Assembly: GCA_019912545.1 (NCBI GenBank)
Contig: JAIOIK010000102.1
Location: forward strand, 1 to 37,150
Source: Ignavibacteria bacterium
GTDB taxonomy: Bacteria; Bacteroidota; Ignavibacteria; Tepidaquicellales; OLB5
DNA length: 37,150 bases
Direction: 5' to 3'
Program-made: the position numbers and the translations under genes
In this document: in pieces, positions 4,126 to 25,918 of the stretch
How positions within the stretch are numbered: the stretch's first letter is position 1
How the letters are laid out: every line of letters starts with the position of its first letter
Notes under the pieces: model-generated
Seen by the model: only the letters and a program-made list of their open reading frames with translations
Database searches by the model: none
What the model was told of the DNA's origin: nothing

Positions 4126-6120
4126 ATGACAGCTATACTTATAATAATGGCTATTGCAATTCTAATTGTTGTTGTAATTCTAATCGTTATTGTGAGCCGT
4201 TATATAGTTGCTAGAAACCAGAATACGAGTAGATTAAAGTCAGATTTTTCAAACAAATATGATTCTCAAAGATTAAAAATGGATTCGAATAATCAATTAG
4301 TAAATAGTATACAAGACATGAAAATTACAATAACGACGTCAAGTAGCTATAAAGATGATTCAATTATTGATATTACAGGTCAATCAAGCAACATTCCATC
4401 AAACATCAATTTGAAGAAATATACCAGTGGTGTCCCGTTTTGGGCACACCATTATGTTTATTCCTTCAATGAGTTAATGGGGGCTTCATATGAACAAAAA
4501 GGTTTTTATCATTTTTTCAAGGGATGTTTTCTCAAGGGTGAATATTTAGATCTTGAAGGAAACACAAATTATGCATTCATTTTATTATTTGATTTACTAA
4601 ATGAATATGAAACCAATAAAAAATTACTGAAGCTTGAAAATCATTTTAATATACTGGGGCAATATTATCCCAAGACAAAGCCCTATTGCAATGCTTACTT
4701 TGCTAAAATATTAGCCGGTGATGAAAGTGATGATGCAACGAAAATAAAAAGTGAAAACGAATACAGCCAAAATTACTATTATGACAATGACTATTGGTCT
4801 TTAGGAACAAAATATAAAGCTAAGCTAAAACTAAATGAAGAGGAAGTCAAACTACTTAATAAACTTTGGTATCCAACAAATAATTTCTGTAGTATTGAAT
4901 ATTGTTTTATGGAAATTCTTAAGCTCTATGTTTTAGTAATATTAGAATTGAATAAGAAATTTATCGAAGAAGGAAGTACTATAGATTCACAATTTATATC
5001 AGTTGCCGATGTCGTTGCAAGAAAACACTACAATTACAGAAACGGAAGTCATAATTACAAGTATTGCTTAGAAACAACTACAAAAGAATTATATTCTTAT
5101 ATCTTTAAACATTGCGAAAATGCGGTTCGAGAATATTATGGTCACAAACGAAAGATAAGTACTGATATATATTATTCAAATAAAGAAATCAAAGAGATAT
5201 ATGAGTCTGTAATTGTTTCCAGGGTATCTGAGATACTTCCGATTCTGATTAATTCGGTTGCGTTTCCTGATGAAGAAACAGAAATTCAGCTTTACACAAA
5301 AAACACTGGTCGATGGAAGTTCAAATTTGAAGAATTAACTAAAAATTACGATGGGAATATAAAAAAGTTTACGGACTCGATTCATGTTCTAGCAAAACTA
5401 AATCAAAAAAATCCATCCATCGAAAATATTTTCTTTGATGCATCAAAGTTTATCGCTAAATACGATAAGGAATCGGCTCTTATTCTATATATTCATTACT
5501 TATATTATGATTTAATATCAACTACTTTTGATAATAAACGATTCACAAAAACTATTCAGAAGAATTTATTTAAAACGAATGAACAATTACATGATTTCGA
5601 AATAATTGTAAGTGAACTGATTAATGATAAGAACCTGGACAAGGCTTTAAAGAGCGTTTCCAAAGTATACGAGGTTAAGAGAAAGAAAATTCGACTTGAC
5701 ACAGCTTCAATAAAAGAAGTACAGCAACAACATTCTGGAACAGTTGAACTCTTGAATGAATATTTAAAAGACGATTATGAAGATGAAAATAATACTATCA
5801 AAACTGAAGAAATGAATAAAGATGAAATCTTGATTGAAATAGTTCCCAAGATTGAAGGATTTCAAAGTTCAGCATATGAAAGTGATATTGCCTTTACGCC
5901 ATTACATTTAGAAACATTGGAATTATTTGTAAAAAGTAATTTTTCATTACCTCAATTAGATCTTGAATTATTTGCAAAATCAAAAAGCATCTTTAAAAAT
6001 CAATTAGTAGAAAGTATTAATGAAGCATGCTATGATTTGTTAGATGATGTATTAATAGAGGAAGAAGATGATTTTTATGCAATTAATATAAACGACTTTC
6101 AAAGAATTTCTGTAAAATGA
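4126..6120 (+). CDS. Membrane-anchored TerB-N/TerB-C domain protein (664 aa)
   Basis: Residues 4-28 are an uninterrupted hydrophobic helix, which suggests anchoring to the membrane with the rest in the cytoplasm. Residues about 100-310 match the TerB-N pattern: FWAHHYVYSFNELMG, then YEQKGFYHFF and NTNYAFILLFDLLNEYE. The last 75 residues (THE LETLELF region through FYAININDF) match TerB-C, with its acidic stretch EEEDDF near the end. TerB-N and TerB-C flank or replace TerB modules in proteins linked to Ter stress systems and to DNA-processing gene neighbourhoods. Here it is the first gene of a three-gene operon with a BrxD-like ATPase and an Lhr-like helicase, and its stop overlaps the next start as ATGA. 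The inferred role is sensor or scaffold for that pair. No strong ribosome binding site precedes the ATG. Confidence 0.8.
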   Translation: MTAILIIMAIAILIVVVILIVIVSRYIVARNQNTSRLKSDFSNKYDSQRLKMDSNNQLVNSIQDMKITITTSSSYKDDSIIDITGQSSNIPSNINLKKYTSGVPFWAHHYVYSFNELMGASYEQKGFYHFFKGCFLKGEYLDLEGNTNYAFILLFDLLNEYETNKKLLKLENHFNILGQYYPKTKPYCNAYFAKILAGDESDDATKIKSENEYSQNYYYDNDYWSLGTKYKAKLKLNEEEVKLLNKLWYPTNNFCSIEYCFMEILKLYVLVILELNKKFIEEGSTIDSQFISVADVVARKHYNYRNGSHNYKYCLETTTKELYSYIFKHCENAVREYYGHKRKISTDIYYSNKEIKEIYESVIVSRVSEILPILINSVAFPDEETEIQLYTKNTGRWKFKFEELTKNYDGNIKKFTDSIHVLAKLNQKNPSIENIFFDASKFIAKYDKESALILYIHYLYYDLISTTFDNKRFTKTIQKNLFKTNEQLHDFEIIVSELINDKNLDKALKSVSKVYEVKRKKIRLDTASIKEVQQQHSGTVELLNEYLKDDYEDENNTIKTEEMNKDEILIEIVPKIEGFQSSAYESDIAFTPLHLETLELFVKSNFSLPQLDLELFAKSKSIFKNQLVESINEACYDLLDDVLIEEEDDFYAININDFQRISVK

Positions 6121-7430
6121 TAGACAACATTAAACCTAAGGAGGCCACTTCCATAATCAATTCATTGATTAGTGGTGTAGTTCCTAAAATTGGAGTACAA
6201 CATATAACTGTTGGACGCTCAGAAGAAATAAATGCAGTTGTAGCTGCCTTGCAAGATGTGAAAAATGGACATAGCATGGTAAAATTTTGGATTGGCGATT
6301 TTGGTTCCGGTAAATCCTTTATGCTTCATTTGTTAAATACAGTTGCTTTAAAGCAAAAGTTTGTCGTAGCAAATGCTGACTTTACTCCTGATAATCGCTT
6401 GTATTCAAATGACGGGAAAGGCGTTGCACTATATTCAGCTATTATAGATAATATATCAATTCAAACTAAACCCGAAGGTGGAGCATTGCCGACTTTACTG
6501 GAAAAATGGATTGAACAAATTATCACGAAAACAGCAAACGAAAATAATATTTCATTGACTGAAATTCGTAATGAGCAATACCTAAAACTTATTCAAAGCA
6601 ACATCATGAAAACCATTCACGAAATTACTGAGGTCGGTGGTTTCGACTTTGGGACGGTTGTAATGAAATACTATGAAGGCTATATCAAAGATGATGAGCA
6701 TTTGAGACGAAGTGCTATTAAGTGGTTAAAAGGCGAATATAGAACCAAAACGGAAGCAAAACAAGACTTAGGGGTTAGAGAGATTATCAATGATTTGAAT
6801 TATTATGATATGCTCAAAAACTTTTGTAAACTTTTTGTAAGTATGGGTTATAGCGGTTTTATGATTAACCTTGATGAAGCTATCAATCTCTATAAGATTT
6901 CAACTTCTGTTATGAGAGAAAAAAACTATGAAAAAATACTTACTATTTATAACGACTGTTTTCAAGGAAAAGTAGCTAACTTGTTTTTCAATTTTGCAGG
7001 TACTAAGGAAGTTTTAGAAAATGAACGCAGAGGACTTTTCAGTTATAGTGCATTAAAATCAAGGCTTCTAACAAATAAGTTTGAAACATTAGAAATTAGA
7101 GATTTTGCACAGCCGGTAATTCGTTTAATGCCTCTAGACCATAATGAAATATTTGTATTGCTCAAAAAACTAAAAGCAATTTTTGACTATAATTATAAAA
7201 CCGACATTTCAATAAGTGATAATGAAATTCAACTATTTATGGAGGAATTGTTCAATAAGCCCGGTGCATCAGAATTTTTGACACCAAGAGAAGTAATAAG
7301 AGATTTTTTAAATATACTGAATATCATTCGTCAAAATCCAACAGTTGATAAAAATAAGTTATTTGGAGAACTTGAAATTTCAGACGAAAGACCTGATGAA
7401 GTTTCATTAGACAGCATTGAAGAACTATAA
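6117..7430 (+). CDS. BrxD-like ATP-binding protein (DUF2791 family, 437 aa)
   Basis: This is a P-loop ATPase of the BrxC/BrxD (DUF2791) group. The Walker A motif GDFGSGKS lies at 60-67. The family signature AIKWLKGEYRTKTEAKQDLG spans about 200-219. Walker B FMINLDEAINLY lies at about 248-259 with D253 and E254. The sensor-like AGTKEVLENERRGLFSY lies at about 294-310. Length and motif order are normal for BrxD, the ATPase that accompanies the BrxHI helicase in type 2 BREX. The start codon overlaps the TerB stop by 4 bases, and the stop shares a base with the helicase start, so the three proteins are probably made in fixed ratio. The inferred job is an ATP-driven switch or loader for the helicase on foreign DNA. 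No methylase, PglZ or BrxC gene is nearby. Confidence 0.88.
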   Translation: MIDNIKPKEATSIINSLISGVVPKIGVQHITVGRSEEINAVVAALQDVKNGHSMVKFWIGDFGSGKSFMLHLLNTVALKQKFVVANADFTPDNRLYSNDGKGVALYSAIIDNISIQTKPEGGALPTLLEKWIEQIITKTANENNISLTEIRNEQYLKLIQSNIMKTIHEITEVGGFDFGTVVMKYYEGYIKDDEHLRRSAIKWLKGEYRTKTEAKQDLGVREIINDLNYYDMLKNFCKLFVSMGYSGFMINLDEAINLYKISTSVMREKNYEKILTIYNDCFQGKVANLFFNFAGTKEVLENERRGLFSYSALKSRLLTNKFETLEIRDFAQPVIRLMPLDHNEIFVLLKKLKAIFDYNYKTDISISDNEIQLFMEELFNKPGASEFLTPREVIRDFLNILNIIRQNPTVDKNKLFGELEISDERPDEVSLDSIEEL

Positions 7431-9556
7431 TGTCATTTGATTTACTTTCTGAGCCAATACGGAAATTCATTCGGGACAAGGGATGGGAGCAATTACGACC
7501 AATTCAAGCTGCCGCTATTGCCAAAATTTTGGCATCAGATGACAATTTTATTCTAGCATCAAGGACGGCATCAGGTAAAACAGAGGCTGCGTTTTTACCA
7601 ATTCTTTCAAAAGTAGATTTTAAACAATCGGGTGTTCAAATACTGTACATTTCACCTTTAATCGCCTTAATCAACGATCAGTTTTATCGTATAGAAGAAC
7701 TTTGCAAAAATCTTGATATAACAGTTACCAAGTGGCATGGAGAGGCAAATAAAACTCTTAAAGACAGGTTGATTAAACAGCCAAACGGAATTGTTTTAAT
7801 AACTCCAGAATCATTGGAAGCAATGTTTGTTAACAAACCTTTTAATATCAAGCAATTGTTTTCAAACCTAAAATATATAGTAATTGATGAAATACATTCC
7901 TTTATTGGTACAGATAGAGGAATTCAGCTAAAATCGATATTATCCAGACTTCAAAATGTGAATTCAAAAACGTTCAGTATAGTTGGATTATCGGCAACAA
8001 TTGGCGATTACAATGAGGCAAAGAAGTTTACAGGTGATGAACTGAAAACGAAAGTTCTTTTGGATAGAACTGCAAAGGAAATTAATGTTGTTTTTCGTTA
8101 TTTTGAAAATTTCAATGAGGAATTGCCATTAGAGTTGCTAAAAGATCTATATATTGAGACTAAAGATAATAAAGTCTTAATTTTCCCTAATAGTAGAGGT
8201 CGAGCAGAAGAAGTTGCAGTAAAGCTCAATAAGATCTCAAGCCGAGTAAAGGGGCATTCAAATTATTTTTCACATCATTCTTCAGTGGACAGAGAGGTGA
8301 GGGAATATGTTGAATATTTTGCCAAAAATAACCGAAGACAAAACTTTTGCATATCTTGCACTTCTACATTAGAATTAGGTATTGATATTGGTACTGTTGA
8401 TGAAGTTGTGCAAATTGATGCAACCCATAGCATTTCCTCATTAATTCAAAGAGTAGGAAGAAGCGGCAGAAAGGAAGGCGAAAGCAGTAACCTATATTTA
8501 TATGCAACTACTAAATGGAATTTGCTTCAATCTATTGCTTGTTGGCTCCTATACACAGAAGGTTTCATTGAACTTCCTCAGAAAAACGAAAAACCATATG
8601 ATATTTTACTTCATCAAGCGTTATCAATAACCAAAGGGCATTCTGGAATTTTACTAACCAAATTAGTAAAACAGTTAAAAGAAAATGCTGCATTTAATCA
8701 AATTGAAGTGTTAGAAATAGAGCAAATCTTAAATTATCTGATTGAAATTGACCTTTTGGAAAAGTTGCGGTCAGAAGTTATTATAGGTATTGAAGGAGAA
8801 AGAATAGTAAATAGTCGGGATTTCTACAGCGTATTTAAGACAGAGGAGAACTTCAAAGTAGTTAATGCAGGTAATACTGTGGGTGAAATTCCTTTTTCTC
8901 CACAAATTATTGAAGATGAAAATATTTTACTATCTGCTAAAATATGGAAAATAAAATATGTGGACCATAAAGCAAAAAAGATAGAAGTAATCCCAGCAAA
9001 CGATGGAAAAAAGCCAATGTTTTTCGGAGGTAGTGCTGATATTCACCCCAAAATTAGAGAAAAAATGTTCAGAATTCTTTATTCCAATAAAACATTTGAC
9101 TTTCTAAATAAAGCCAGTAGTGATGAATTAGAAAAGATACGCAAAGAATTTTCAGTTTTTAATATTAAAAATTTGGAAAAGGAACGACCTTTGTTAATGG
9201 CTGAATTACATGCTCAATTGTTTACATTCACGGGATCACGAATAAATAGGACATTACAACTTTTATTGAACATATCAGAAATTAACAACTTAATAGATAC
9301 AATTAGCAGTTCGTTTTATTTCAATGGGTTAAATGAGAATTTCTGCGAGAAGCTTGATAATCTAAACTACTTTATAGAAGACATTGATTCACACATATGT
9401 GATCTTTTACATGCAAACCCGGGATTATTAAGTTTCTCTAAATGGGGCTTGTATTTACCTGAAAGTTTTCAAGTTAAACTTTTAAAAGATAAGTATTATG
9501 ATATTGAAGGTACTAAAGAGTATCTATCCAAAACAAAATTCATTATAAATTCATAA
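7430..9556 (+). CDS. Lhr/BrxHI-like superfamily 2 DEAD/H-box helicase (708 aa)
   Basis: All superfamily 2 helicase motifs are present: Q-like LRPIQAAAI (22-30), motif I ASRTASGKT (43-51), Ia ISPLIALINDQ (74-84), Ib TPESLEAMF (125-133), II DEIH (153-156), III GLSATIG (186-192), IV LIFPNSRGRAEEVA, V STLELGIDIG and VI QRVGRSGR. The Lhr-type WHGEANK segment (102-108) and the long C-terminal region after the helicase core place it with Lhr and BrxHI rather than RecQ or RecG. It uses ATP to move along or remodel nucleic acid. It is the last gene of the TerB-BrxD-helicase operon, starts at the TAATG overlap at 7430, and is followed by a strong terminator. It is shorter than full-length Lhr proteins. 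Confidence 0.9.
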   Translation: MSFDLLSEPIRKFIRDKGWEQLRPIQAAAIAKILASDDNFILASRTASGKTEAAFLPILSKVDFKQSGVQILYISPLIALINDQFYRIEELCKNLDITVTKWHGEANKTLKDRLIKQPNGIVLITPESLEAMFVNKPFNIKQLFSNLKYIVIDEIHSFIGTDRGIQLKSILSRLQNVNSKTFSIVGLSATIGDYNEAKKFTGDELKTKVLLDRTAKEINVVFRYFENFNEELPLELLKDLYIETKDNKVLIFPNSRGRAEEVAVKLNKISSRVKGHSNYFSHHSSVDREVREYVEYFAKNNRRQNFCISCTSTLELGIDIGTVDEVVQIDATHSISSLIQRVGRSGRKEGESSNLYLYATTKWNLLQSIACWLLYTEGFIELPQKNEKPYDILLHQALSITKGHSGILLTKLVKQLKENAAFNQIEVLEIEQILNYLIEIDLLEKLRSEVIIGIEGERIVNSRDFYSVFKTEENFKVVNAGNTVGEIPFSPQIIEDENILLSAKIWKIKYVDHKAKKIEVIPANDGKKPMFFGGSADIHPKIREKMFRILYSNKTFDFLNKASSDELEKIRKEFSVFNIKNLEKERPLLMAELHAQLFTFTGSRINRTLQLLLNISEINNLIDTISSSFYFNGLNENFCEKLDNLNYFIEDIDSHICDLLHANPGLLSFSKWGLYLPESFQVKLLKDKYYDIEGTKEYLSKTKFIINS

Positions 9557-14674: not shown

Positions 14675-15859
14675 TTATTTCACTTTTTCCAGCGCCTGCT
14701 CAAGGTCCCATATCAGGTCTTTTACATCTTCAATACCAACAGAATATCTTACAAGGCCATCGCTTATCCCTGCTTTTGCTTTATCAGCCGGGGATACTTT
14801 TGAATGCGTCATTGATGCAGGATGCTCGATCAATGATTCAACTCCACCAAGCGAAACCGCAAGTATTGAGATCTTAACATTATTCATTAAAGTTTTACCG
14901 GACTGGAATCCACCTTTAAGCCCGAAACTTATCAATGCACCGGGTCCGTCCATCTGTTTTTTGGCAAGTTCATACTGCGGATGCGATTTTAATCCGGGAT
15001 ATCTGACCCATTCAACTTTAGGATGCTTTTCAAGGTATTCAGCAATTATCATTGCATTTTCCTGCGCCCTGTCCATCCTTACAGCAAGAGTCTTTAAGCC
15101 GCGTATTACCAAATAAGACTGGTGAGGATCAAGGTTACAGCCTAATGCGATCATCATCGAGCGCAGCTTTTTGTACATTTCCTTTGTTTTAGCTACGACC
15201 ATGCCGCCAACAATATCCGCATGCCCGTTGATGAATTTAGTCATAGAATGAACTACAACATCGGCGCCAAGATCAAGCGGCTTTTGCAGGTAGGGGCTTG
15301 AAAAAGTATTATCAACCACAAGTACCAATCCGTTTTCCTTTGCGATCTCTGAGCAGGCTTTCAAATCGGTAATTTCGATCGTTGGATTTGCAGGTGTTTC
15401 AATATACAAAACTTTCGTGTTTGGCTTAATTGCCTTTTTGATATTTTCAACATCAGAAGTAGTTACATAAGTTGAATCTACTCCGAAGCGTGAATAATGC
15501 TCTTCTATTATAACACGTGAAGGTCCGTACACAGCATCCGAGCTTATCATATGATCGCCTTTTGAAAGCAGCGCCATGTAAACAGTGTTTATTGCTCCCA
15601 TTCCTGAGCTGGTGCCAATTCCGCCGAATCCGTTTTCAAGCTCAGCAACTGATCTTTCAAGAGCATTAATTGTAGGGTTGCCAATTCTTGTATAAATGTA
15701 GCCTTCACTTTCTCCCAGGAAACATCTTGCGCCCTCTTCGGCAGTTTCAAACTCGAATGTTGATGATTGAAATATGGGTACATTTACGCTGCCGTATTTA
15801 TCTTTGTATCCGCCGCCATGGATGAGTTTAGTATTGAAACCGGAATTATTTACTGACAT
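14675..15859 (-). CDS. Cys/Met-metabolism PLP enzyme, methionine gamma-lyase / cystathionine gamma-lyase type (394 aa)
   Basis: This is a fold-type I PLP enzyme of the transsulfuration family. The PLP lysine is K208 in HSMTKFINGHADIVGG. Other family residues are Y56 and R58 (YTRIGNPT), Y111 (VYGPS), D183 (VVDNTFSSPY) and the C-terminal SLGGVESLIEHPASMTH. The last motif and the length favour methionine gamma-lyase or cystathionine gamma-lyase/synthase over O-acetylhomoserine sulfhydrylase, which is usually longer. Where classical methionine gamma-lyases have Cys after the active-site Tyr-Gly, this protein has Pro (P113), so the substrate is uncertain. The ATG at 15859 follows AAAGGAAAT. It is 58 bases downstream of the NtrC-type regulator on the same strand and might be read with it. 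Confidence 0.85.
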   Translation of the reverse strand: MSVNNSGFNTKLIHGGGYKDKYGSVNVPIFQSSTFEFETAEEGARCFLGESEGYIYTRIGNPTINALERSVAELENGFGGIGTSSGMGAINTVYMALLSKGDHMISSDAVYGPSRVIIEEHYSRFGVDSTYVTTSDVENIKKAIKPNTKVLYIETPANPTIEITDLKACSEIAKENGLVLVVDNTFSSPYLQKPLDLGADVVVHSMTKFINGHADIVGGMVVAKTKEMYKKLRSMMIALGCNLDPHQSYLVIRGLKTLAVRMDRAQENAMIIAEYLEKHPKVEWVRYPGLKSHPQYELAKKQMDGPGALISFGLKGGFQSGKTLMNNVKISILAVSLGGVESLIEHPASMTHSKVSPADKAKAGISDGLVRYSVGIEDVKDLIWDLEQALEKVK

Positions 15860-15917
15860 ATATTTCCTTTATTGTTTTTTATATAAATTGATTGAATAAT
15901 TACAGCTATAAATATCT

Positions 15918-17273
15918 TTATTTATTACCGATCCTGTTAATTCGATACCTCAAATTGCTTTCTGATATACCAAGCCTTTTAGCGGCTTGTGTCTGGTTAC
16001 CGCCGGTAAGCCTTAATGCTTCTTCAATCATCTCTTTTTCGAGTGATTCTATTCTCTCATTAAGGTTCGGGCTGTCAGAATCCCTGCTACTATTGGGCGA
16101 GCCCTTAATGTCAACTGTTACATCATCAATTGCAATAATATTGCCGCGCGAGAGAACAACAGCCTTCTGAATAATATTTTCCAGTTCTCTAATATTACCC
16201 GGGTAATTGTACTTCAAAAGGTAATCAATAGCTTCCCTAGAAAAAACCATATTTTCTTTGTTAGCCGCAGTTGAATATTTCTTCAGGCAGAAATCGATCA
16301 AAGGAATAATATCTGTTTTCCGCTCACGGAGAGGGGGGAGCTCTATTTGAACAACGTTTAGCCTGTAAAACAGGTCTTCCCTGAACCGGCCATCCTGTAT
16401 CAATTTCCTCAGATCTTTGTTTGTTGCAGCAATAAGACGCACATCTACCTCAATAGTGTGAGAAGAACCGACTCTTTCAAATTTATTTTCCTGCAATATC
16501 CTCAAGAGCTTTACCTGAGTTGATAAGGGAATATCCCCGATCTCATCCAGAAAAATTGTTGAGCCATCTGCAGTTTCAAACCGCCCGATCCTTTGTTTAT
16601 CTGCACCTGTAAAGGCGCCCTTTTCGTGCCCGAATAATTCACTTTCCAGCAGGTTTTCATTCAGTGCAGCGCAGTTAACGGCAACAAAAGGTTTCAATTT
16701 TCTATCACCTGAGTAATGAATTGCTTTTGCGATGAGTTCTTTACCTGTTCCGCTTTCACCGGTTATCAGCACCGATGCCTTGCTTGGCGCAACCCGAGCG
16801 GCAAGACTTAATATTTCCTGCATCTGTTTTGATTTTGCAATAATGCCTTCTATATTATGTTCACTTTTTAGCTGCTGCCGGAGCATTTCATTTTCTTCAA
16901 TGAGATGTTTTCTTTCTACAATTTTTCCGAGCAGCAGTTCGAGCTCATCAAGGTCAATAGGTTTTGTGAGGTAATCATATGCGCCTTCTTTCATTGCTTT
17001 TACTGCCTGTTCTATTGTACCAAATGCAGTCATCAGTACAACAGAGATCATAGGATTGATCTTCTTTACCCGTGTAAGCAATTCCATTCCCGTAATACCC
17101 GGCATTTTGTTATCGGTAAGTATGATATCAATTGCATGCGCAGATACGGTCTCTATTCCAGCAGTGCCATCGGGGGCTTCATAAACTTCATAATTTTTTC
17201 GCGTTAAGAAACCCTTTAATATCTCTCTTTGGGCGGTTTCGTCATCTATTATCAGTATGTTTATTTTTTTCAT
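15918..17273 (-). CDS. NtrC-family sigma-54-dependent response regulator (451 aa)
   Basis: Residues 1-120 are a receiver domain with D10/D11, phospho-acceptor D54 (LTDNKMPG), T82 and K104. Residues 143-380 are the AAA+ sigma-54 activator domain: Walker A GESGTGKE (172-179), the sigma-54 contact loop GAFTGA (219-224) and Walker B FLDEIGD (241-247). Residues 408-450 are a Fis-type HTH ([20 protein letters not shown]). It activates promoters read by sigma-54 RNA polymerase once phosphorylated. It follows the histidine kinase gene by 8 bases and is clearly its partner. Target promoters are not evident; I found no convincing TGGC-N8-GC site in this window. Confidence 0.95.
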
Positions 17274-17281
17274 AAATTCTG

Positions 17282-19336
17282 TTATATTTTAATTGGCAGG
17301 CAAATGGTGAAAGATGAACCGATACCCGGAGAGCTTTCTATATCAATGCTTCCGTTGTGCTGAGAAACGATCTGCTGAACAATACTCAGTCCAAGCCCTG
17401 ACCCGTTTGGCTTGGTTGTATAATACAGGTCAAATATTTTCTTCAGTTCATCTTTTCCTATGCCGGAGCCGGTATCCTTTAGTTTGAAGCAGAAGTTACT
17501 ATCATGTGTAAAGGATTCAATTGTCACACTTCCGCTTTTGGGAGTTGCATCAACGGCATTTATCAGTAAATTAACTAATGCCTGCTTTAGCAGCTCCTTA
17601 TCGGCATTAAACTCGGCTTGACCGGTTTCGATAATCCTGAATTCAATAGCTTTGGAACTGCAAGTTGTTTCCCCGATATTTTTCAGCTCTGCAAGCAATT
17701 CACCTGATCGTACTTTACCTAAATTCAGCTTTGGAGGACGGGCAAACTTAAGGAATTCTTCAATAATACTATTCACCCGTTTTGATTCAGAAAGCATTAC
17801 TTTCACAAGCGGCTGAAGATCATTTTTGTTTTCATCAGTGATGAATTCCTTACCGATTCTCTGTGCTATCATATTGATAGAGTTAAGGGGATTGCGCACT
17901 TCGTGAGCAACTCCGGAGGCAAGCTCACCCATTGCGGATAATTTTTCCTTTTGTTTTACTGTTTCTTCCATCTTCCTGATGCCGGTAAGGTTTTTTATTA
18001 CAACAGTAAACGAGTCATAATTGCCCCGGGTATCCTTTGTAAATGTTGATGTGAGGCTTAGTGTCTTCGTGGCTATACCCGGTATGGAGAATTCTATTTC
18101 TTTATTGTTTAATTCTTTTCGGTCATTCAAACTCTGCTTTACGATTTCAAGCCTGGAATCAAAAACCCTGCATAGATCTGAACCGATAACTTCTGCGGAA
18201 GACATACTAAACAGCTTTTCGGCATTCTTATTGAATATTCTGATTTCGCCGTTCATCCCGGTTGAAATTACAGAATCAGCCATATTCTGAAGTATGTTAC
18301 CCGAAAATGACTGTATTTTGCTGAATTCTCCTGAAACGAATTTCAGGTTTTGATTCATGTTCAATACGCTTATTACAATTACTCCAATTACTATCAAAAT
18401 TACAGTAGTGATAATGCCCCTGTTTACCATTCTTGTTTCAAGAGATCTCATTTCATCCATATCAAGCCCTATACGCAGTAAACCATATGATTCACCATTG
18501 ACCTTTAAAGTGCGGGCAGCTTCGTAATAATCGGTACCATTAATGCTGAAAACTCTGGAGTATATGGAGTCGCTAGTAAGCGCGTTGTTCAGAAAATCGT
18601 CATTACGTGCAGGTTCAAAAGTAAAATCAGGTTTTGAGGATGCTATCACTCCGCCGCTATCCTGCAGGATAATATAACCCATACCTTTGACCTGGCCAAT
18701 ATCTTCGATCAGTTTATTAAGCCCGATCTTTTTTTTGAATTGGATCATGTAGTCGGCATCTATATTTACCACGATCATGCCTCCAGGGTTTGCGGATCTT
18801 TTTACGGCAACGGCGAATCGTTTCCCGGTATCATGCCTGGATTTCTTGAAACCTATAATGGATTCGTCTTTATTTTCTGCAAGAAGTGATTTTATGTAAT
18901 CGCCGGGCGGGCTGTTGCGGTTATGTTCAAGGTGCAGGGTATCGTCTGTTATGCTGCTGAATACTTTATCAGCGTTTGTATCGAAAATATTAATTCTGAA
19001 TACGGAATTTTCATCTGCAATATTATGGAGAAGGGTTTGAGTGATGAGTTTCATGCTATCAAGCCTTCTAACCATTCTTGCCGTCCCTAAAAGACGCAAA
19101 GCAACAAGGTCTTCAAGCTCATTTCCGGATATAACTGTATTTAAGCTGCTTTGGTTGATTGTTTTGATGACCGAAACAGCTTCATCATTCATAAGTGTCT
19201 TAAGCTCTTTTTTGCTCTGCTCAAGTTCTACTATTGCTGATGTTATCATAAGTGCTGCAACAACTACTGCAATACCGATGATATTTTTGGGATTTATGAA
19301 TCCCGATAACCGGTATTTTGATGTTTTAGGTTCCAT
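17282..19336 (-). CDS. Membrane sensor histidine kinase (PAS, HisKA, HATPase; 684 aa)
   Basis: A first membrane helix lies at about 19-38 and a second at about 305-327. The part between them is a periplasmic sensor domain of double-Cache type size, with YIILQDSGGVIASSKPDF near its end. Residues 345-455 form a PAS domain (NMADSVISTGMNGEIRIFNK). The phosphorylated His is H478 in GVAHEVRNPLNS. The ATPase domain has the N box LLINAVDATP, G1 DTGSGIG and G2 GSGLGLSIV. It is an NtrB/ZraS-like kinase that phosphorylates the regulator encoded 8 bases downstream. A TATTTTTG -7-like box at 19345-19352 on the minus strand lies directly before the ATG at 19336, which would leave almost no leader. The signal sensed is unknown. 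Confidence 0.93.
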   Translation of the reverse strand: MEPKTSKYRLSGFINPKNIIGIAVVVAALMITSAIVELEQSKKELKTLMNDEAVSVIKTINQSSLNTVISGNELEDLVALRLLGTARMVRRLDSMKLITQTLLHNIADENSVFRINIFDTNADKVFSSITDDTLHLEHNRNSPPGDYIKSLLAENKDESIIGFKKSRHDTGKRFAVAVKRSANPGGMIVVNIDADYMIQFKKKIGLNKLIEDIGQVKGMGYIILQDSGGVIASSKPDFTFEPARNDDFLNNALTSDSIYSRVFSINGTDYYEAARTLKVNGESYGLLRIGLDMDEMRSLETRMVNRGIITTVILIVIGVIVISVLNMNQNLKFVSGEFSKIQSFSGNILQNMADSVISTGMNGEIRIFNKNAEKLFSMSSAEVIGSDLCRVFDSRLEIVKQSLNDRKELNNKEIEFSIPGIATKTLSLTSTFTKDTRGNYDSFTVVIKNLTGIRKMEETVKQKEKLSAMGELASGVAHEVRNPLNSINMIAQRIGKEFITDENKNDLQPLVKVMLSESKRVNSIIEEFLKFARPPKLNLGKVRSGELLAELKNIGETTCSSKAIEFRIIETGQAEFNADKELLKQALVNLLINAVDATPKSGSVTIESFTHDSNFCFKLKDTGSGIGKDELKKIFDLYYTTKPNGSGLGLSIVQQIVSQHNGSIDIESSPGIGSSFTICLPIKI

Positions 19337-19493: not shown

Positions 19494-19709
19494 TTACAAA
19501 CCGGACTGATCGTCAATTGATTTATCAATTGCCTTTTGTTTTGGCGGTATGCCCATGACAATTCCTCCGAGCATTCCATAAACAGTTGTTATATACCAGC
19601 GCGAAGTCAGCGGGCACCCCCCGGATGTACAGCCGATGAAATAGTAATATGCATAACCAAGTGACGCACCTATTACTGCAAACAGAAGCATCTTCTGATA
19701 TTTTTTCAT
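19494..19709 (-). CDS. DUF6132 small membrane protein (71 aa)
   Basis: Two hydrophobic helices (residues about 7-25 and 39-55) flank the motif YYFIGCTSGGCPLTSRWY, in which GC-x-SG-x-CP is the mark of DUF6132 proteins. The two Cys could bind a metal or a sulfane sulfur. The tail is hydrophilic (PPKQKAIDKSIDDQSGL). It overlaps the upstream YgaP-like gene by 4 bases (ATGA), so the two are translated together. Similar small Cys proteins often accompany thioredoxin, rhodanese or YeeE genes, and this one lies in such a locus. Role unknown. Confidence 0.8.
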   Translation of the reverse strand: MKKYQKMLLFAVIGASLGYAYYYFIGCTSGGCPLTSRWYITTVYGMLGGIVMGIPPKQKAIDKSIDDQSGL

Positions 19710-19915
19710 TTCCTCAGTTTCCTTAAAGTGCTTAGCCCAAGCGGCAGGTAAAGAGGACAGGAACCGATGAAGCTTGTAGCAAGGAATATCACAGATAGCG
19801 CTATCAATATTATACCTATTGTTCCGGAAACAATTCCGGTTAAGTAGAAAGTGATAAATGCTGCTGCTATAATGATCCTTGTAATCTTATCTGCTGAACC
19901 TATATTTTTTTTCAT
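19706..19915 (-). CDS. YgaP-like transmembrane protein (DUF2892, 69 aa)
   Basis: The opening MKKNIGSADKITRIIIAA and the ending SFIGSCPLYLPLGLSTL match the DUF2892 domain, the membrane part of YgaP, where it is fused to a rhodanese. It has two hydrophobic helices and a Cys in the conserved GSCPLY motif. The protein here is only the membrane domain, at normal length for stand-alone copies. Its stop overlaps the DUF6132 start, and both lie downstream of the thioredoxin lipoprotein gene on the same strand, with a REP-like hairpin between. A link to sulfane-sulfur handling is inferred from the neighbours. Confidence 0.82.
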   Translation of the reverse strand: MKKNIGSADKITRIIIAAAFITFYLTGIVSGTIGIILIALSVIFLATSFIGSCPLYLPLGLSTLRKLRK

Positions 19916-20088: not shown

Positions 20089-20655
20089 CTACTGAACTAA
20101 GAGTATTTCATTGATCGCTTTTACAAAGCCGTCTTTGGGGATCGCACCCATTGTCATCTGCGGTTTGCCCTTCATTGGGATAAACAGAATTGAAGGAATG
20201 CTGCGAATTCCGAAAACTGAAGCCAGTTCCTGCTCTGATTCTGTATCCACTTTATAGATCTGTACTTTCCCGTCATATTCTTTTGAAAGCTCATCTAAAA
20301 CCGGGGCTACCATTTTGCACGGTCCGCACCAGTCAGCGTAAAAATCTATAATTACCGGTTTATCTCCTGTGAACATCCATTCTTTATTTGTTTCATAATT
20401 GAATACTTTTTGTTTGAATTCTGCTGCTGTTAAATGTACCATTTTAGTGCTTCCTTTTGTATTAGTTTCGTTATTATTATTGATTTTTGTATCAGTTTTA
20501 ACTTCATTTGTGCCGTTATTTCGGTTTATCGGTTGCTGCGTAGTTGTACTATTATTTAATGATTGTTTGTCATCTTTCACTCCGCATCCGGTTAATAAAG
20601 CGGTAAATAACGCGGCAAGAAGTAAAATGTGAAATATTAATTTGGCTTTTTTCAT
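20089..20655 (-). CDS. Thioredoxin-fold lipoprotein (188 aa from ATG 20655)
   Basis: The N-terminus is a lipoprotein signal peptide: a hydrophobic stretch then LLTGC, with the lipid-bearing Cys at residue 24 when counted from the ATG at 20655. An ATG at 20664 in the same frame would add three residues; I cannot decide firmly between them. After the Cys comes a linker of about 45 residues very rich in Asn and Thr, then a complete thioredoxin domain with FYADWCGPCKM (active site WCGPC) and the cis-Pro loop RSIPSILF. This places a dithiol reductase outside the cytoplasmic membrane. Its promoter region holds the first AGTTGCTA operator, and it is divergent from the octaheme cytochrome. It may deliver electrons to sulfur compounds or to cytochrome Cys. 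Confidence 0.9.
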   Translation of the reverse strand: MKKAKLIFHILLLAALFTALLTGCGVKDDKQSLNNSTTTQQPINRNNGTNEVKTDTKINNNNETNTKGSTKMVHLTAAEFKQKVFNYETNKEWMFTGDKPVIIDFYADWCGPCKMVAPVLDELSKEYDGKVQIYKVDTESEQELASVFGIRSIPSILFIPMKGKPQMTMGAIPKDGFVKAINEILLVQ

Positions 20656-20683
20656 AAAAATCATAACAATTGCGGTTCCTAAT

Positions 20684-20702
20684 TAGTTGCTAGTAGCAAC
20701 TT
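20684..20702. promoter_or_regulatory. MarR-type operator upstream of thioredoxin gene
   Basis: AGTTGCTA-G-TAGCAACT (20685-20701) is a perfect 8-base inverted repeat with one central base. On the minus strand it lies just after a TATCTTTT sequence (20713-20706) that resembles a -7 box, so a bound protein would block transcription start. The same palindrome occurs at 20829-20847 and 25431-25455. Confidence 0.75.
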
Positions 20703-20811
20703 ATTAAAAGATATCGAAATAAACAAGGGATGAAAACGGTCTGCCGAAAGTATGGATATAAATCATATTTTTCTTTGACATAAGACATATTTTATCATCG
20801 TGTATAAATGG

Positions 20812-20847
20812 TATCTTTGTATATATGTTAGTTGCTACTGGCAACTA
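20812..20847 (+). promoter_or_regulatory. Promoter -7 box and MarR-type operator upstream of the octaheme cytochrome
   Basis: TATCTTTG at 20812-20819 fits TAnnTTTG. Ten bases further, TAGTTGC-TACTG-GCAACTA (20829-20847) is the second copy of the operator, with one mismatched pair. The operator would cover about +3 to +21, a repressor position. No good -33 box is visible. Confidence 0.65.
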
Positions 20848-20885
20848 TAATCGCATCCAACATTGCTATTGATACTTAAAAAAGA

Positions 20886-22454
20886 ATGAGAAAGATATTT
20901 TTTTTGATAACGCTAATTGCAGTTATTGTCATGAGCATTCTTGCAATTATCCTTCCTAAACATTCTGACAACGAAAGTCTGAAAGAGCTGAAAGAAAAAT
21001 TAGCAGCGAAAGATTCAATACCTGCCGATCATACCAAATTTGAAGTATTGCAGAAAAAATTCAATGCTCCCTCAGATGTTACTGAAACCTGTTTAAGCTG
21101 TCATACAGAGCGCGGTAAAGAGGTGATGCGCTCCAGTCATTGGAATTGGGAAAGACAGGAGTATATCAAAGGCAAAGGCATAGTAAGTATAGGCAAAAAG
21201 AATGCAATTAATAATTTCTGTATTGGTGTGGAAGGCAATGAGCAAAGCTGTGCTAAATGCCATATCGGATTCGGAATGACAGATAGCATGTTTTCTTATA
21301 CCGACCAGAAGAACATAGACTGTATGGTTTGCCATGATAACACAGAAACATATGTTAAAGGCAACGAAAGATCAGGTTATCCTGATGCAGAGCTTGACCT
21401 TCAAAAGATAGCCACCGGAATTGGAAAACCAAAAAGGAGTAATTGCGGAGTTTGTCATTTCTTCGGCGGTGGCGGTAATAATGTTAAGCATGGCGACCTT
21501 GAGAAATCTATGTTTGAGCCAACAAAAGAAGTTGATGTTCATATGGCATCCGAAGGCCCTGATATGCAGTGTATTGATTGCCACGTGACCAAAGAACATC
21601 AGATGCTTGGAAGGGTTTATTCACTTTCATCAATGAATAAAAACCGCTCTGAATGCGAACAATGTCATACCGAAAATCCCCATAAGGAAGATATTTTAAA
21701 TGAACATACTTTAAAAGTGGCCTGCCAGACCTGTCATATACCCATATATGCAAAGGTTAATTCTACAAAAATGGAATGGGACTGGTCAACAGCCGGGCAG
21801 CTTCGCGATGGAATTCCATTTGAAGAAGAAGATTCACTGGGGAATCATTCTTATCTTTCTATAAAAGGAAGCTTCAAATGGGAAAGAAACCTCAAGCCTG
21901 ATTACATTTGGTTCAATGGCACAGCTGACCATTACTTGCTTGGTGATAGAATTGAAGATACATCCGGAGTTCTTTTGCTGAACAAACTTAATGGTTCATA
22001 CATTGATAAGAGTTCCAAAATTATTCCGGTAAAGATACATAAAGCCAAACAGCCTTTTGATCCTGTTACCGGAATGCTGCTTCAGCCCAAACTGTTCGGA
22101 AAGAAAACGGGTGAGGGCGCATTTTGGAAAGATTTCGACTGGGCACGCGCATCTGAAGTAGGAATGAAAGAGGTCGGGCTGCCATTCAGCGGAAGGGTAT
22201 CTTTTATACGTACTGAAATGTTTTGGCCTGTAAATCATATGGTTTCAAAAAAAGAAGAGTCCCTTAAGTGTACCGATTGCCACACAAGTTCAAACAGCAG
22301 GCTTGCAGGTGTTCCGGGCTTCTATATGCCTGCAAGGGATAGAAGCAGTATTATTGATTATTCAGGAATGGCTATTATCCTTTTAACAATATTCGGAGTT
22401 ATGGTACATTTAAGTGTGAGAATATATTCATCTTTGAAAAGGAAGATAAAATGA
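20886..22454 (+). CDS. Octaheme c-type cytochrome, tetrathionate-reductase (OTR) type (522 aa)
   Basis: Eight CxxCH heme sites are present, at C69, C122, C146, C187, C229, C257, C280 and C462. Eight hemes with seven grouped in the first 285 residues and one far downstream fit the octaheme tetrathionate reductase family known from Shewanella, which reduces tetrathionate and also nitrite or hydroxylamine in vitro. Residues 4-23 are an N-terminal signal anchor and residues about 492-515 a C-terminal membrane helix, so the heme domain is held on the outer face of the membrane. The stop overlaps the next gene, a cytochrome b, by 4 bases. The two probably form a quinol-linked reductase or oxidase for sulfur compounds. 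The direction of the reaction cannot be read from the sequence. Confidence 0.9.
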   Translation: MRKIFFLITLIAVIVMSILAIILPKHSDNESLKELKEKLAAKDSIPADHTKFEVLQKKFNAPSDVTETCLSCHTERGKEVMRSSHWNWERQEYIKGKGIVSIGKKNAINNFCIGVEGNEQSCAKCHIGFGMTDSMFSYTDQKNIDCMVCHDNTETYVKGNERSGYPDAELDLQKIATGIGKPKRSNCGVCHFFGGGGNNVKHGDLEKSMFEPTKEVDVHMASEGPDMQCIDCHVTKEHQMLGRVYSLSSMNKNRSECEQCHTENPHKEDILNEHTLKVACQTCHIPIYAKVNSTKMEWDWSTAGQLRDGIPFEEEDSLGNHSYLSIKGSFKWERNLKPDYIWFNGTADHYLLGDRIEDTSGVLLLNKLNGSYIDKSSKIIPVKIHKAKQPFDPVTGMLLQPKLFGKKTGEGAFWKDFDWARASEVGMKEVGLPFSGRVSFIRTEMFWPVNHMVSKKEESLKCTDCHTSSNSRLAGVPGFYMPARDRSSIIDYSGMAIILLTIFGVMVHLSVRIYSSLKRKIK

Positions 22455-23113
22455 TGATTAAGAAAATATATATATACAGGGCATTTGAAAGATTCTGGCA
22501 CTGGATGCAGGCATTCCTTATCTTTTTGCTTGCGGCAACCGGATTTGAAGTTCACGGTTCAATAAAATTCTTCGGTTATCAGAATGCCGTTACTTATCAT
22601 CAAATTGCAGCATATGCATTTATAGTTCTCATAGCATTTGCAATTTTCTGGCATCTTACTAGCGGCCAGTGGAAACAATATATTCCCACAAGAGGAAATC
22701 TCAGGGCGCAGATCAATTATTATTTGTTCGGGATATTTAAGCATGCGCCTCACCCAACTAAAAAAACCGTTTTGAGCAAGCTTAATCCGCTTCAGAAACT
22801 TGTTTATCTTGGCCTGAAAATTCTGGTAATACCGGTCATGGTTATTTCAGGGCTGCTGTATATGTATTACAGGTATCCACAGCAGAACAGGATTGAATCT
22901 CTGAATATTGAATCACTTGCTCCGATAGCATATATCCATACTGCAGGTGCATTTCTTTTAATTGCATTCATAGCTGCCCATGTGTACCTTATTACAACGG
23001 GAAGCAAAGTTACATCAAATCTAAAGGCGATGATAACCGGTTATGAAGATCTTGATGACGGTGAAAAAAATGAAGAAAAGGATATAAAAGATGCTATCCT
23101 TCTTAAAAAGTAA
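22451..23113 (+). CDS. Cytochrome b561-like membrane subunit (220 aa)
   Basis: Four hydrophobic helices carry His residues typical of diheme cytochrome b: H17 (RFWHWMQ), H50 (TYHQIAAYAF), H67 (IFWHLTSG), and later YIHTAGAF and AAHVYLI. The motif ERFWHWMQAFLI is a usual opening of cytochrome b561/NiFe-hydrogenase type b subunits. It starts within the last codons of the octaheme cytochrome gene (ATGA overlap) and ends in a charged cytoplasmic tail (DDGEKNEEKDIKD). The likely job is to pass electrons between the quinone pool and the octaheme cytochrome. Length is normal for the family. Confidence 0.9.
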   Translation: MMIKKIYIYRAFERFWHWMQAFLIFLLAATGFEVHGSIKFFGYQNAVTYHQIAAYAFIVLIAFAIFWHLTSGQWKQYIPTRGNLRAQINYYLFGIFKHAPHPTKKTVLSKLNPLQKLVYLGLKILVIPVMVISGLLYMYYRYPQQNRIESLNIESLAPIAYIHTAGAFLLIAFIAAHVYLITTGSKVTSNLKAMITGYEDLDDGEKNEEKDIKDAILLKK

Positions 23114-23158
23114 TATGCTGTTTAGAACAGACTATGAAATTTCAATAAGTAAAATAGA

Positions 23159-23674
23159 ATGAACAATACAAAATACATGAATCCATACCTGGCAGGGTTT
23201 TTCCTGGGGCTTCTGCTGCTGGTAACAATTTTTATAACAGGCCGTGGACTTGGCGCAAGCGGCGCATTTAAAAGTGCCATAGTTGCAGCAGTTGAAACTG
23301 CTGCCCCTGTTCACGCATCTGATACTAAATATTATGTTGAGTATATGGGCGAGCATGACGGGAGTCCACTGAAGAACTGGCTGGTATTTGAAGTTATCGG
23401 AGTTATTGCGGGAGCATTTATTTCAGGTTTGGTATCAAACAGGCTGAAATTTACTCTGGATAAATCCGGAAGAACAACAACTAAGGTCAGAATTATTGGC
23501 GCGCTGCTTGGCGGGTTACTGTTTGGATTTGGCTCACAGCTGGCAAGAGGCTGCACAAGCGGTGCGGCATTAAGCGGTATGGCAGTGCTTTCTGCCGGAG
23601 GCATTATTACAATGCTTGCAATTTTTGGCGGGGCTTATATGTTTGCTTATTTCTTCAGAAAATTGTGGATATAG
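23159..23674 (+). CDS. YeeE/YedE sulfur-transport protein, first half (171 aa)
   Basis: This has several hydrophobic helices and the family motif GSQLARGCTSGAALSG, with the conserved Cys at 132. YeeE/YedE (TsuA) proteins move thiosulfate or sulfane sulfur across the membrane through conserved Cys. The length is half of a full transporter, and the next gene carries the second half with its own Cys motif, so the two probably pair. It is 45 bases after the cytochrome b gene and in the same direction. Residues about 44-72 are an unusual hydrophilic loop on one side of the membrane. The ATG at 23159 has no strong ribosome binding site. Confidence 0.88.
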   Translation: MNNTKYMNPYLAGFFLGLLLLVTIFITGRGLGASGAFKSAIVAAVETAAPVHASDTKYYVEYMGEHDGSPLKNWLVFEVIGVIAGAFISGLVSNRLKFTLDKSGRTTTKVRIIGALLGGLLFGFGSQLARGCTSGAALSGMAVLSAGGIITMLAIFGGAYMFAYFFRKLWI

Positions 23675-23689
23675 AAAGGACAAAATAAA

Positions 23690-24883
23690 ATGGCACCTCT
23701 GGTTCCCGATATTATCAGTAATGAATTTAATTTTGTAATAGCTATTCTTATCGGAATTGCATTTGGGTATATATTAGAGCAGGCAGGTTTTTCTTCATCT
23801 AAAAAACTTGTCGGATTGTTTTATGGTTATGATTTCACTGTGCTGCGTGTATTCTTTACAGCGGGCATAACGGCTATGATGGGTGTCATTGGCCTGGCTC
23901 ATTACGGACTTCTTGACCTGAATATTATATACGTGAATCCAACTTTTCTGCGATCAGCTATTGTTGGGGGCCTTATTATGGGGTTGGGTTTTGTAATTGG
24001 CGGTTTTTGCCCGGGTACAAGTATTTGCGCTGCCTCTATAGGTAAGATTGATGCTATGATATTTGTGGCGGGTATTATTCCGGGAGTATATTTATTTGCT
24101 GAAGGCTATCCATATCTGGAACATTTCTATATGGCAGATGCATGGGGATATGTGACTCTATTCCAGGTAATGGGAATCTCACAGGGTTTAATGGCTTTCC
24201 TTATGATTTTTGCAGCAGTTGCTGCGTTTGTTGTTACTACATTTGTTGAAAAAAGAGTGAACGGCAAAGCTAATCCCGAATTCTTGCCTGCAAAAAAATA
24301 CTTTGCTCTGGCGGGCGCTGCAGTACTGATAGGGCTTACTGCATTTGCTCTTCCTGAGAGGCAAAGCTATGTTATGGCCAATGCTGAGGTAAATGAAAAT
24401 ATCAATACAACAGCCGCAAAGAAGATTTCGGCAGATGAGCTGGCATTCAGGATAATGAACGATATAAATTCATTCAGGATATATGACCTGAGGACGAAGG
24501 AAGAATTTACTAAGTTAAGTCTGCCGAACTCCGAAAATATTCAGTTAAATTACTTCTTCGGAAAAGATGCAGCCAAGAACCTGAAGAAAGATAATGTGAT
24601 AAATATTATTATCTCATTGCGCGAAGATGAAAGCATAAAAGCTAATTATATTGCTGCGGAAAACGGATACAATGAAATGTATATACTCCAAGGCGGCTTG
24701 CAGGGTTTTAATGATTCTATTATAAATTTTACTTCACCCCGAATTCCCCAAACCAGGTGGGAAAGAGATACGTATAGTTTCAGGGAAGCTGCGAAGACAA
24801 AAATTCCGGGGATAATAGAGAACTTCAAAAAGCAAAATAGAAGTGAAACGAAAAAGACAAAACGAATTATAGGCGGCTGCTGA
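23690..24883 (+). CDS. YeeE/YedE sulfur-transport protein with rhodanese-like C-terminal domain (397 aa)
   Basis: Residues 1-240 hold the membrane part with motif GGFCPGTSICAASIGKIDA (C107 and C113). Residues about 255-350 look like a rhodanese domain (FRIYDLRTKEEFTKLSLPN at its start, GYNEMYILQGGLQGF at its end). Where active rhodaneses have a loop starting with Cys, this protein reads IIISLREDESI, so the catalytic Cys seems replaced, probably by Ser. The final residues are IIGGC, leaving a Cys at the very C-terminus. This gene follows its YeeE partner by 15 bases, behind AGAAAGGA. The fused domain may bind sulfane sulfur without transferring it, or the terminal Cys may take over. Confidence 0.87.
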   Translation: MAPLVPDIISNEFNFVIAILIGIAFGYILEQAGFSSSKKLVGLFYGYDFTVLRVFFTAGITAMMGVIGLAHYGLLDLNIIYVNPTFLRSAIVGGLIMGLGFVIGGFCPGTSICAASIGKIDAMIFVAGIIPGVYLFAEGYPYLEHFYMADAWGYVTLFQVMGISQGLMAFLMIFAAVAAFVVTTFVEKRVNGKANPEFLPAKKYFALAGAAVLIGLTAFALPERQSYVMANAEVNENINTTAAKKISADELAFRIMNDINSFRIYDLRTKEEFTKLSLPNSENIQLNYFFGKDAAKNLKKDNVINIIISLREDESIKANYIAAENGYNEMYILQGGLQGFNDSIINFTSPRIPQTRWERDTYSFREAAKTKIPGIIENFKKQNRSETKKTKRIIGGC

Positions 24884-24973
24884 AATATTGTATAGCTTAT
24901 AAAATATACAGGAAGTTGTTTTATATTTCGATTTAATTTATTAAGTTGCGGATAACAACAATATTTTTACAAA

Positions 24974-25390
24974 ATGAACAGATCAATTGTAGAGCTGATC
25001 TTTGAGCTGAAATTTGCCTGCCTGGCAAAAGAGGAGAGCATCAGGGAAAAGCTTGATATATCTCCCGCCGAATACAGGGGGATAATTTCTATGCAGCCCG
25101 GGAAAGCTGTAAGCTGTATGGAACTTTCGGCTGCTATGGGGCTATCCAGATCGCGCGGCAGCAGGGTAGTGGATAAGCTTATCAAAAACGGGTTTTTGAA
25201 AGAAGCCGAAAAGTCTGATGATAAAAGGGTATTTAATGTTATTCTGACAAAAGCAGGCAGAAAAGCGCTTAGGGAGATAAACCATGTTATGAAAGATTGT
25301 GAATCTGCAATTCTAAAGGATCTGCCTGAAAAGGAACTCAAATCATTTACACTTACCCTGCATAAGATTTCAGAAATTGTAAAACCCTGA
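24974..25390 (+). CDS. MarR-family transcriptional regulator (138 aa)
   Basis: A winged HTH lies in the middle: CMELSAAMGLSRSRGSRVVD (about 48-67, helix and recognition helix), followed by the wing EAEKSDDKRVFNVILTKAG. Flanking helices should form the dimer. Length is normal. Three Cys (C16, C48, C109) could make it a thiol or persulfide sensor. It is 90 bases downstream of the YeeE-rhodanese gene and just before the osmC gene, whose promoter carries a perfect 25-base palindrome. I infer that this protein binds the three AGTTGCTA-N-TAGCAACT palindromes and represses the sulfur locus until it senses a sulfur or oxidant signal. Confidence 0.88.
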   Translation: MNRSIVELIFELKFACLAKEESIREKLDISPAEYRGIISMQPGKAVSCMELSAAMGLSRSRGSRVVDKLIKNGFLKEAEKSDDKRVFNVILTKAGRKALREINHVMKDCESAILKDLPEKELKSFTLTLHKISEIVKP

Positions 25391-25430
25391 AAACCGAATG
25401 CATGAAAGATGTGAATACTGAACCATTATA

Positions 25431-25467
25431 ATTTAGTTGCTATTAGCAACTAAATGTGTTATATTTG
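25431..25467 (+). promoter_or_regulatory. Promoter and perfect MarR-type operator upstream of osmC
   Basis: The operator is a perfect 25-base palindrome (25431-25455): arm ATTTAGTTGCTA, central T, then the inverse arm. The -7 box TATATTTG (25460-25467) fits TAnnTTTG, and GTTG at 25436-25439 lies 20 bases upstream in the -33 position, inside the operator. A bound repressor would block the polymerase. Confidence 0.85.
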
Positions 25468-25507: not shown

Positions 25508-25918
25508 ATGAAAATGGAAATATATTTCGAAGAAGGAAAGAAAGTTAACGCAAGCTATAACGGCAATGTGATTAAAACTGATCAGCCAATTGAAGCAGGC
25601 GGATCCGGCAGCGCACCTGCGCCGTTTGATCTGTTCCTGGCATCAATAGGGACATGTGCCGGAATCTATGTGAAATCATTCTGCAGTCAGCGGGGGATAC
25701 CGGCTGATAATATAAGGATAGTTCAATCAATGCAGTACGATTTTGAAAAGTCGCTTGTTGGTAAGATTAAGCTTGATATAATTCTGCCTGAAGATTTTCC
25801 CGAAAAGTATAAAAGCGCAGTAATTAATGCCGCCAATTTATGTGCCGTTAAGAAGCATTTACTTGACCCTCCGGAAATTTCAGTTGAAGCAAAAACTTTA
25901 AATGAAGTAATGGATTAA
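25508..25918 (+). CDS. OsmC-family protein (136 aa)
   Basis: The motif PAPFDLFLASIGTCAGIYVK with C50, and NLCAVKKHLLDPP with C112, are the two conserved Cys regions of OsmC proteins, which reduce organic peroxides or act on persulfides. C59 is extra. The start at 25508 is chosen because the promoter -7 box at 25460-25467 would exclude the in-frame ATG at 25454, and AGAAAGG lies about 10 bases upstream. The gene lies right after the MarR gene and behind its best operator, so it is very probably controlled by it. In this locus a role in sulfane-sulfur or peroxide removal is likely. Confidence 0.9.
   Translation: MKMEIYFEEGKKVNASYNGNVIKTDQPIEAGGSGSAPAPFDLFLASIGTCAGIYVKSFCSQRGIPADNIRIVQSMQYDFEKSLVGKIKLDIILPEDFPEKYKSAVINAANLCAVKKHLLDPPEISVEAKTLNEVMD

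Follow-up and report, generated by a model that had tools for sequence, protein, structure and literature searches.

A palindromic operator that accompanies a MarR-family regulator beside sulfur and thiol genes in an Ignavibacteria bacterium

Introduction

Several regulators of the MarR family respond to sulfane sulfur. According to a review, sulfane sulfur is sensed by OhrR, MexR, MarR and MgrA (PMC11211675), and in Pseudomonas aeruginosa OhrR sulfane sulfur links cysteines of the N-terminal region to C121 of the partner (PMC9495516). Here we analyze a stretch of 37,150 nucleotides from an Ignavibacteria bacterium (contig JAIOIK010000102.1 of assembly GCA_019912545.1; the whole stretch is called the window), in which a MarR-family protein with three cysteines (C16, C48 and C109) is encoded among genes for a lipoprotein thioredoxin, an octaheme cytochrome, YeeE-type transporters and an OsmC-family protein. 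A sequence-only reading of this DNA had proposed that three matching palindromes define a sulfur/redox regulon of the MarR protein. Taken as a whole, the window is best explained as a compact regulon of one MarR regulator, probably a thiol-switch repressor answering a sulfane or oxidized sulfur signal.

The protein shares with OhrR of Xanthomonas campestris and P. aeruginosa the MarR fold, a probable target of OsmC/Ohr type, and the presence of cysteines both close to the N-terminus and in a helix of the C-terminal part. P. aeruginosa OhrR is reported to be released by oxidant or sulfane sulfur (PMC9495516), as we propose here. However, the cysteine positions are comparable only roughly, and the targets here add an octaheme cytochrome, YeeE transporters and a lipoprotein thioredoxin. 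MexR of P. aeruginosa is also a MarR-family protein with a two-cysteine switch and sulfane-sulfur sensing (PMC11211675), and the spacing of its C30 and C62, 32 residues, equals that of C16 and C48 here. In contrast, MexR controls a drug efflux pump, C48 is not invariant in the present subfamily, and operator and targets differ. By theme, the closest published case is BmoR of Bacteroides fragilis, from a genus of the same GTDB phylum. BmoR is a MarR repressor of an adjoining thiol/sulfur enzyme and is tied to thioredoxin expression, but its inverted repeats contain TTTCC, not TTGCTA, and in that study it bound its own operon only (PMC6158253). At the loci carrying the family of the BmoR partner enzyme, no related MarR gene was linked. 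SoxR of Hyphomicrobium denitrificans is an ArsR-family and not a MarR protein, and its other targets differ. What it shares is the tie between SoxT/YeeE-like transporters and a sulfur-responsive repressor (PMC11582611). SqrR of Rhodobacter capsulatus is reported to be a polysulfide-responsive transcription factor whose modification is reversed by a thioredoxin (PMC10044876); it is another regulator with another gene set.

Results

Three palindromes stand at three promoters of the window and nowhere else in the genome

The palindrome AGTTGCTA-N-TAGCAACT has three copies in the window, at 20685-20701 (no mismatch), 20830-20846 (one mismatch) and 25435-25451 (no mismatch), and the copy before osmC is perfectly symmetrical across 25 bases (25431-25455), all as the sequence-only reading had described. 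The chance expectation for the window is 0.18 matches at up to three mismatches, and none of 100 shuffles reached three. Searching the organism's own genome (3,660,562 bases in 206 contigs) at up to two mismatches returned no match beyond the three of the window. Eight more appear at three mismatches, 11 in all, against 17 for a reversed control pattern, so that matches of this quality occur at chance level. A scan of the same genome with a 27-position operator profile, built in part from the window sites, found the same three places only (E <= 0.05), and the pattern search is independent of that profile. Scored with a symmetrized operator matrix, the window sites reach 28-33 bits, and no position of a dinucleotide-matched random genome of the same size scores 16 or more. 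Shuffles, reversed-pattern and Markov controls together rule out a chance origin of the palindromes. A spread over unrelated genes, raised earlier as the outcome that would argue against a regulon, was not seen, as this genome has the palindrome only here.

Each copy lies at a putative promoter. Operator 1 (20685-20701, minus strand; no mismatch; profile E 2.5e-5), which reads AGTTGCTACTAGCAACT towards the thioredoxin gene, stands 21 nucleotides before the listed start, and its counterparts stand before the same thioredoxin gene in genus relatives. Directly upstream of it we read a -7-like box, TATCTTTT (20706-20713, minus strand), which appears similar to Bacteroidota-type promoters; in relatives, the thioredoxin promoter has a TTGAC element further upstream of this box. 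Operator 2, AGTTGCTACTGGCAACT (20830-20846, plus strand; one mismatch; profile E 1.5e-3), lies 40 nucleotides before the cytochrome gene, with a -7 box read from the sequence, TATCTTTG (20812-20819, plus strand), 10 nucleotides upstream of it. Operator 3, AGTTGCTATTAGCAACT (25435-25451, plus strand; profile E 6.3e-6), is the best site; it sits inside the 25-base palindrome and next to marR, whose gene ends at 25390, as the earlier reading had noted. It is followed after 8 nucleotides by the putative -7 box of osmC, TATATTTG (25460-25467, plus strand), a gap kept in all genus members examined. The description of every palindrome as overlapping or directly following a -7 box is thus right for the cytochrome gene, roughly right for the thioredoxin gene and wrong for osmC, where the operator precedes the box and falls in the region of the upstream promoter element. 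Because the sites overlap or abut promoter elements, repression by blocking of the polymerase is the likely direction of control.

The earlier statement that the window holds no further palindrome is correct for close matches, but a degenerate fourth copy, AGTTGCGGATAACAACA (operator 4; 24944-24960, plus strand), had been overlooked 14 nucleotides before marR. With the operator matrix it scores 12.7 bits, far below the 28-33 of operators 1-3 but above every other window position, which places it fourth. A random genome of this size is expected to hold about five positions with such a score, so the support for operator 4 comes from position and conservation: the genus relatives examined also carry a degenerate copy before marR, at almost the same position. 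Sister-family genomes and other phyla often have a better-scoring site before marR, up to 23.6 bits, which points to autoregulation. Autoregulation is common among MarR regulators, and operator 4 is a probable autoregulatory site.

The operator tracks one MarR subfamily across genomes

Whole-genome scans of 36 genomes with the operator profile returned sites for each of the 21 that encode this MarR protein and for one of the 15 that do not. The scan of genome and relatives that the sequence-only reading had proposed thus shows the operator following this MarR subfamily. The second batch alone gives 8 of 8 against 1 of 10 (Fisher p = 4e-4) and all genomes together p = 4e-9, values that ignore shared ancestry and to which some profile-building sites of both batches contribute.

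Within the genus, the MarR protein was found in 11 of the 13 genomes, among them Chlorobi bacterium OLB5 and Ignavibacteria bacterium UBA2360; the relatives are 63-81% identical to the protein of the window, and most genomes that have it carry sites at the thioredoxin gene and at osmC. No operator-profile match was found in the MarR-less genomes G001, G002 and G008. Gene order is mostly kept: thioredoxin, sites, octaheme cytochrome, YeeE halves, MarR, site, osmC. In several relatives (L039-L043, L051, L052), the operon opens with a FadL-type porin gene, its octaheme cytochrome has only about 41% identity, and the YeeE halves are followed by a decaheme-like cytochrome fused to a b-type part. 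This difference in gene content between the same operators indicates that the operators stayed and that the operon between them was exchanged. Several genus relatives also have a site before a gene for a secreted 479-amino-acid protein with the motif GWNDLGMHC (L145 1970, L146 1940, L147 2010, L048 6643, L053 7475). A correspondingly larger regulon in the own genome was rejected, as the 479-amino-acid protein is matched there only by its C-terminal part, which is common to many proteins.

The pair of regulator and operator extends beyond Ignavibacteria, and in most members, from three phyla, a site lies directly before marR. In two Aminicenantes genomes the site separates marR from leftward genes, a thioredoxin gene among them, and one Chitinispirillaceae genome has two sites before marR. 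The next-nearest MarR group of the class differs in its recognition helix; it retains a cysteine where C16 stands but has no C109, and a weak site was found in only one of its five members. No relatives of this MarR protein were found in viral contigs, and our search of the open-licence literature found no description of the regulator-operator pair.

In the sister family, sites lie far from marR, over unlinked loci, and most of them are absent from the set used to build the profile. The genes downstream are osmC (8), FmdB zinc ribbon (6), lipoprotein thioredoxin (5) and the octaheme cytochrome operon (2), followed by DUF6132, YgaP-like, DUF302 and CMD-like genes with one each, the names FmdB, DUF302 and CMD, like Rrf2 and IscS below, being our readings of the sequences and not library matches. 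Two types of gene set adjoin marR itself in this family. One encodes a PhsA-type molybdoenzyme with iron-sulfur and NrfD-type subunits; the other encodes a type III sulfide:quinone reductase, DUF1641, TusE/DsrC and DsrE2. In one genome (L100), the octaheme-YeeE operon of the window recurs at 57-76% identity, close to marR and to the PhsA-type genes. These results together uphold the sulfur and thiol theme first noticed in the window, since dispersed sites mostly precede the same kinds of gene and sulfur enzymes adjoin marR. Two loci deserve mention in their own right. At L096 (675-1904), a sulfide:quinone reductase gene lies directly behind the subfamily MarR gene and scores 653 bits with the type III selenoprotein-subtype model. 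At L133 (2709-4659), the DUF6132 counterpart has its own operator and is followed by Rrf2-like and IscS-like genes, a possible link to iron-sulfur assembly.

The regulator is a MarR-family protein with two invariant cysteines

The marR gene (24974-25390, plus strand) encodes 138 amino acids that match PF12802 with 28.3 bits (cut-off 27) and PF01047 with 25.7 bits (cut-off 24.6). Its AlphaFold2 model, with a predicted local distance difference test score (pLDDT) of 90, has a winged-helix fold with N- and C-terminal dimerization helices, and the best structure matches of the model are all MarR-family proteins, with Z up to 15.0 over 138 residues. The layout, a regulator gene adjoining a probable target whose promoter has a palindromic operator, is also MarR-type. 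All sequence and structure tests applied thus place the protein in the MarR family, and it lies below the cut-off of every named subfamily that it matched. The best NCBIfam matches, BilQ (50.3 against 125 bits), MprA (41.7 against 157) and TcaR (39 against 170), all fall short, as does SlyA, under which it therefore cannot be filed. No OhrR model appears among the 12 NCBIfam matches, in a library whose content was not checked for such a model, and no OhrR chain is among the best 50 structure matches, which excludes nothing.

All 27 members compared, the most distant at 29% identity, have C16 and C109, and 25 have C48. This refines the proposal that one of the three cysteines senses the signal, in favor of C16 and C109. 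The AlphaFold2 model places C16 in helix 1 and C109 in helix 5. When the protein is aligned to SarZ by profile and by structure, SarZ C13 falls near residues 6-8. The recognition-helix residues S58, S60, R61, S63 and R64 are invariant in the same 27 members.

Genes of the regulon and its surroundings

Operator 1 faces a leftward operon. Its first gene encodes the lipoprotein thioredoxin (20089-20664, minus strand; lipobox LTGC, WCGPC; PF00085 1.9e-26; TIGR01068 111 bits, cut-off 96.8), the second a small YgaP-like membrane protein (19706-19915, minus strand), recognized from its translation and through an L040 counterpart that matches PF11127 with 73 bits, and the third a small DUF6132 membrane protein (19494-19709, minus strand; PF19628 1.1e-11). 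Rightward of operator 2 lie the genes for an octaheme c-type cytochrome of the tetrathionate reductase family (20886-22454, plus strand; 8 CXXCH; TIGR04315 579.7 bits, cut-off 375), a cytochrome b561 membrane subunit (22451-23113, plus strand; PF01292 8.5e-29), a YeeE/YedE-type sulfur transporter half with the motif GCTSG (23159-23674, plus strand; PF04143 2.7e-22), and a second YeeE/YedE-type half fused to a rhodanese-like domain (23690-24883, plus strand; PF04143 1.2e-12, PF00581 7.3e-6). Behind operator 3, osmC (25508-25918, plus strand) encodes an OsmC-family protein with cysteines at 50, 59 and 112 (PF02566 7.6e-15). The own genome has three OsmC-family genes, and the operator precedes this one only.

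Just left of the regulon, 14675-19336 holds genes for a Cys/Met-metabolism enzyme (best family PF01053), a sigma-54 response regulator and a Cache-type sensor kinase, and no operator was found within these positions. Elsewhere in the window (4126-9556), a single operon carries an apparently complete Shango anti-phage set: SngA (TerB-C), SngB (BrxC/D-like, 551 bits) and SngC (helicase, 713 bits).

Discussion

We propose that the MarR protein very probably switches sulfur-handling and thiol-protection genes by binding the promoter palindromes. As a homodimer, it would bind the pseudo-palindrome TTAGTTGCTANTAGCAACTAA at three promoters, those of the thioredoxin operon, the octaheme cytochrome operon and osmC, and more weakly the degenerate copy before its own gene. 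Bound protein would cover promoter elements or the start region and thereby repress transcription. C16, probably together with C109 and possibly with C48, would react with sulfane sulfur or a similar thiol oxidant, perhaps through disulfide chemistry, and the DNA would be released. The sulfane-sulfur species may be a persulfide or polysulfide that arises from thiosulfate, tetrathionate or sulfide. Release would then switch on the uptake and reduction of oxidized sulfur and the repair of modified thiols. The gene content of the window, with thiosulfate-like import, tetrathionate-like reduction and thiol repair, argues for a sulfur signal, and we place about two thirds of our confidence on sulfane or oxidized sulfur and one quarter on a peroxide or other oxidant.

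Several observations weigh against this proposal. By alignment offsets, C16 and C109 are off the exact cysteine positions of OhrR. The YeeE-rhodanese fusion has cysteines only at 107, 113 and 397; its rhodanese-like domain has none and so cannot be an ordinary sulfurtransferase, and it perhaps has a sulfur-binding or docking role. About ten sites in relatives precede genes that we could not assign and that show no obvious link to sulfur. OsmC and thioredoxin, which are also the most constant targets across genomes, suit peroxide or electrophile stress equally well. The same regulator and operators might thus serve a different signal, an organic peroxide, an electrophile or a general thiol oxidant, with the sulfur genes acting as thiol-repair or electron-sink functions. 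Published work lends this some weight, as OhrR proteins, whose cysteines sit in comparable helices, use them to sense peroxides and answer sulfane sulfur as well (PMC11211675, PMC9495516), and BmoR of B. fragilis is a MarR regulator tied to thiol balance under oxygen (PMC6158253). We nevertheless regard such a signal as less likely, since the PhsA-type reductase, octaheme cytochrome, YeeE, type III sulfide:quinone reductase, TusE/DsrC and DsrE2 that recur beside the regulator or its sites are sulfur-specific, and since the MarR protein matched no OhrR-family model among its 12 NCBIfam matches, with the limit on the library given above.

A final point against the proposal is genome G506, which is MarR-less by subfamily search and holds two good operator copies (L199, L200). 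Its best MarR candidates are without the recognition helix of this subfamily, and its assembly is fragmented; a missing contig, a foreign contig or a lost regulator are possible explanations. Sites without this MarR protein are what one would expect if the palindromes were operators of another regulator and the marR gene a chance neighbor. That reading is very improbable given the co-occurrence across the 36 genomes, the site directly before marR in most members of three phyla, and MarR subfamilies with another recognition helix that are mostly without the site, the one in five being a weak match. The perfect or near-perfect inverted repeats and their intergenic position would also fit RNA hairpins, terminators or mobile repeats. 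Against these stand the fixed distances to promoter boxes, the absence of the palindrome elsewhere in the genome, and a core that is conserved between copies whose flanks differ, and we consider such an origin close to excluded.

The regulon of one sulfur-responsive MarR protein thus remains the preferred explanation. We give an even chance to the wider view that this undescribed MarR subfamily is a dedicated sensor of sulfane or oxidized sulfur, linking tetrathionate/thiosulfate reduction, YeeE import and thiol repair via one operator. If true, the subfamily would have a role that is known elsewhere mainly from other regulator families. The regulon hints at when octaheme cytochromes of the 'tetrathionate reductase family' are used, whose physiological substrate sequence does not settle. 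For uncultured Ignavibacteria, the window offers a testable regulator-operator pair, and operator-based membership would tie DUF6132, the YgaP-like protein, FmdB, DUF302 and the secreted 479-amino-acid protein to sulfur and thiol chemistry.

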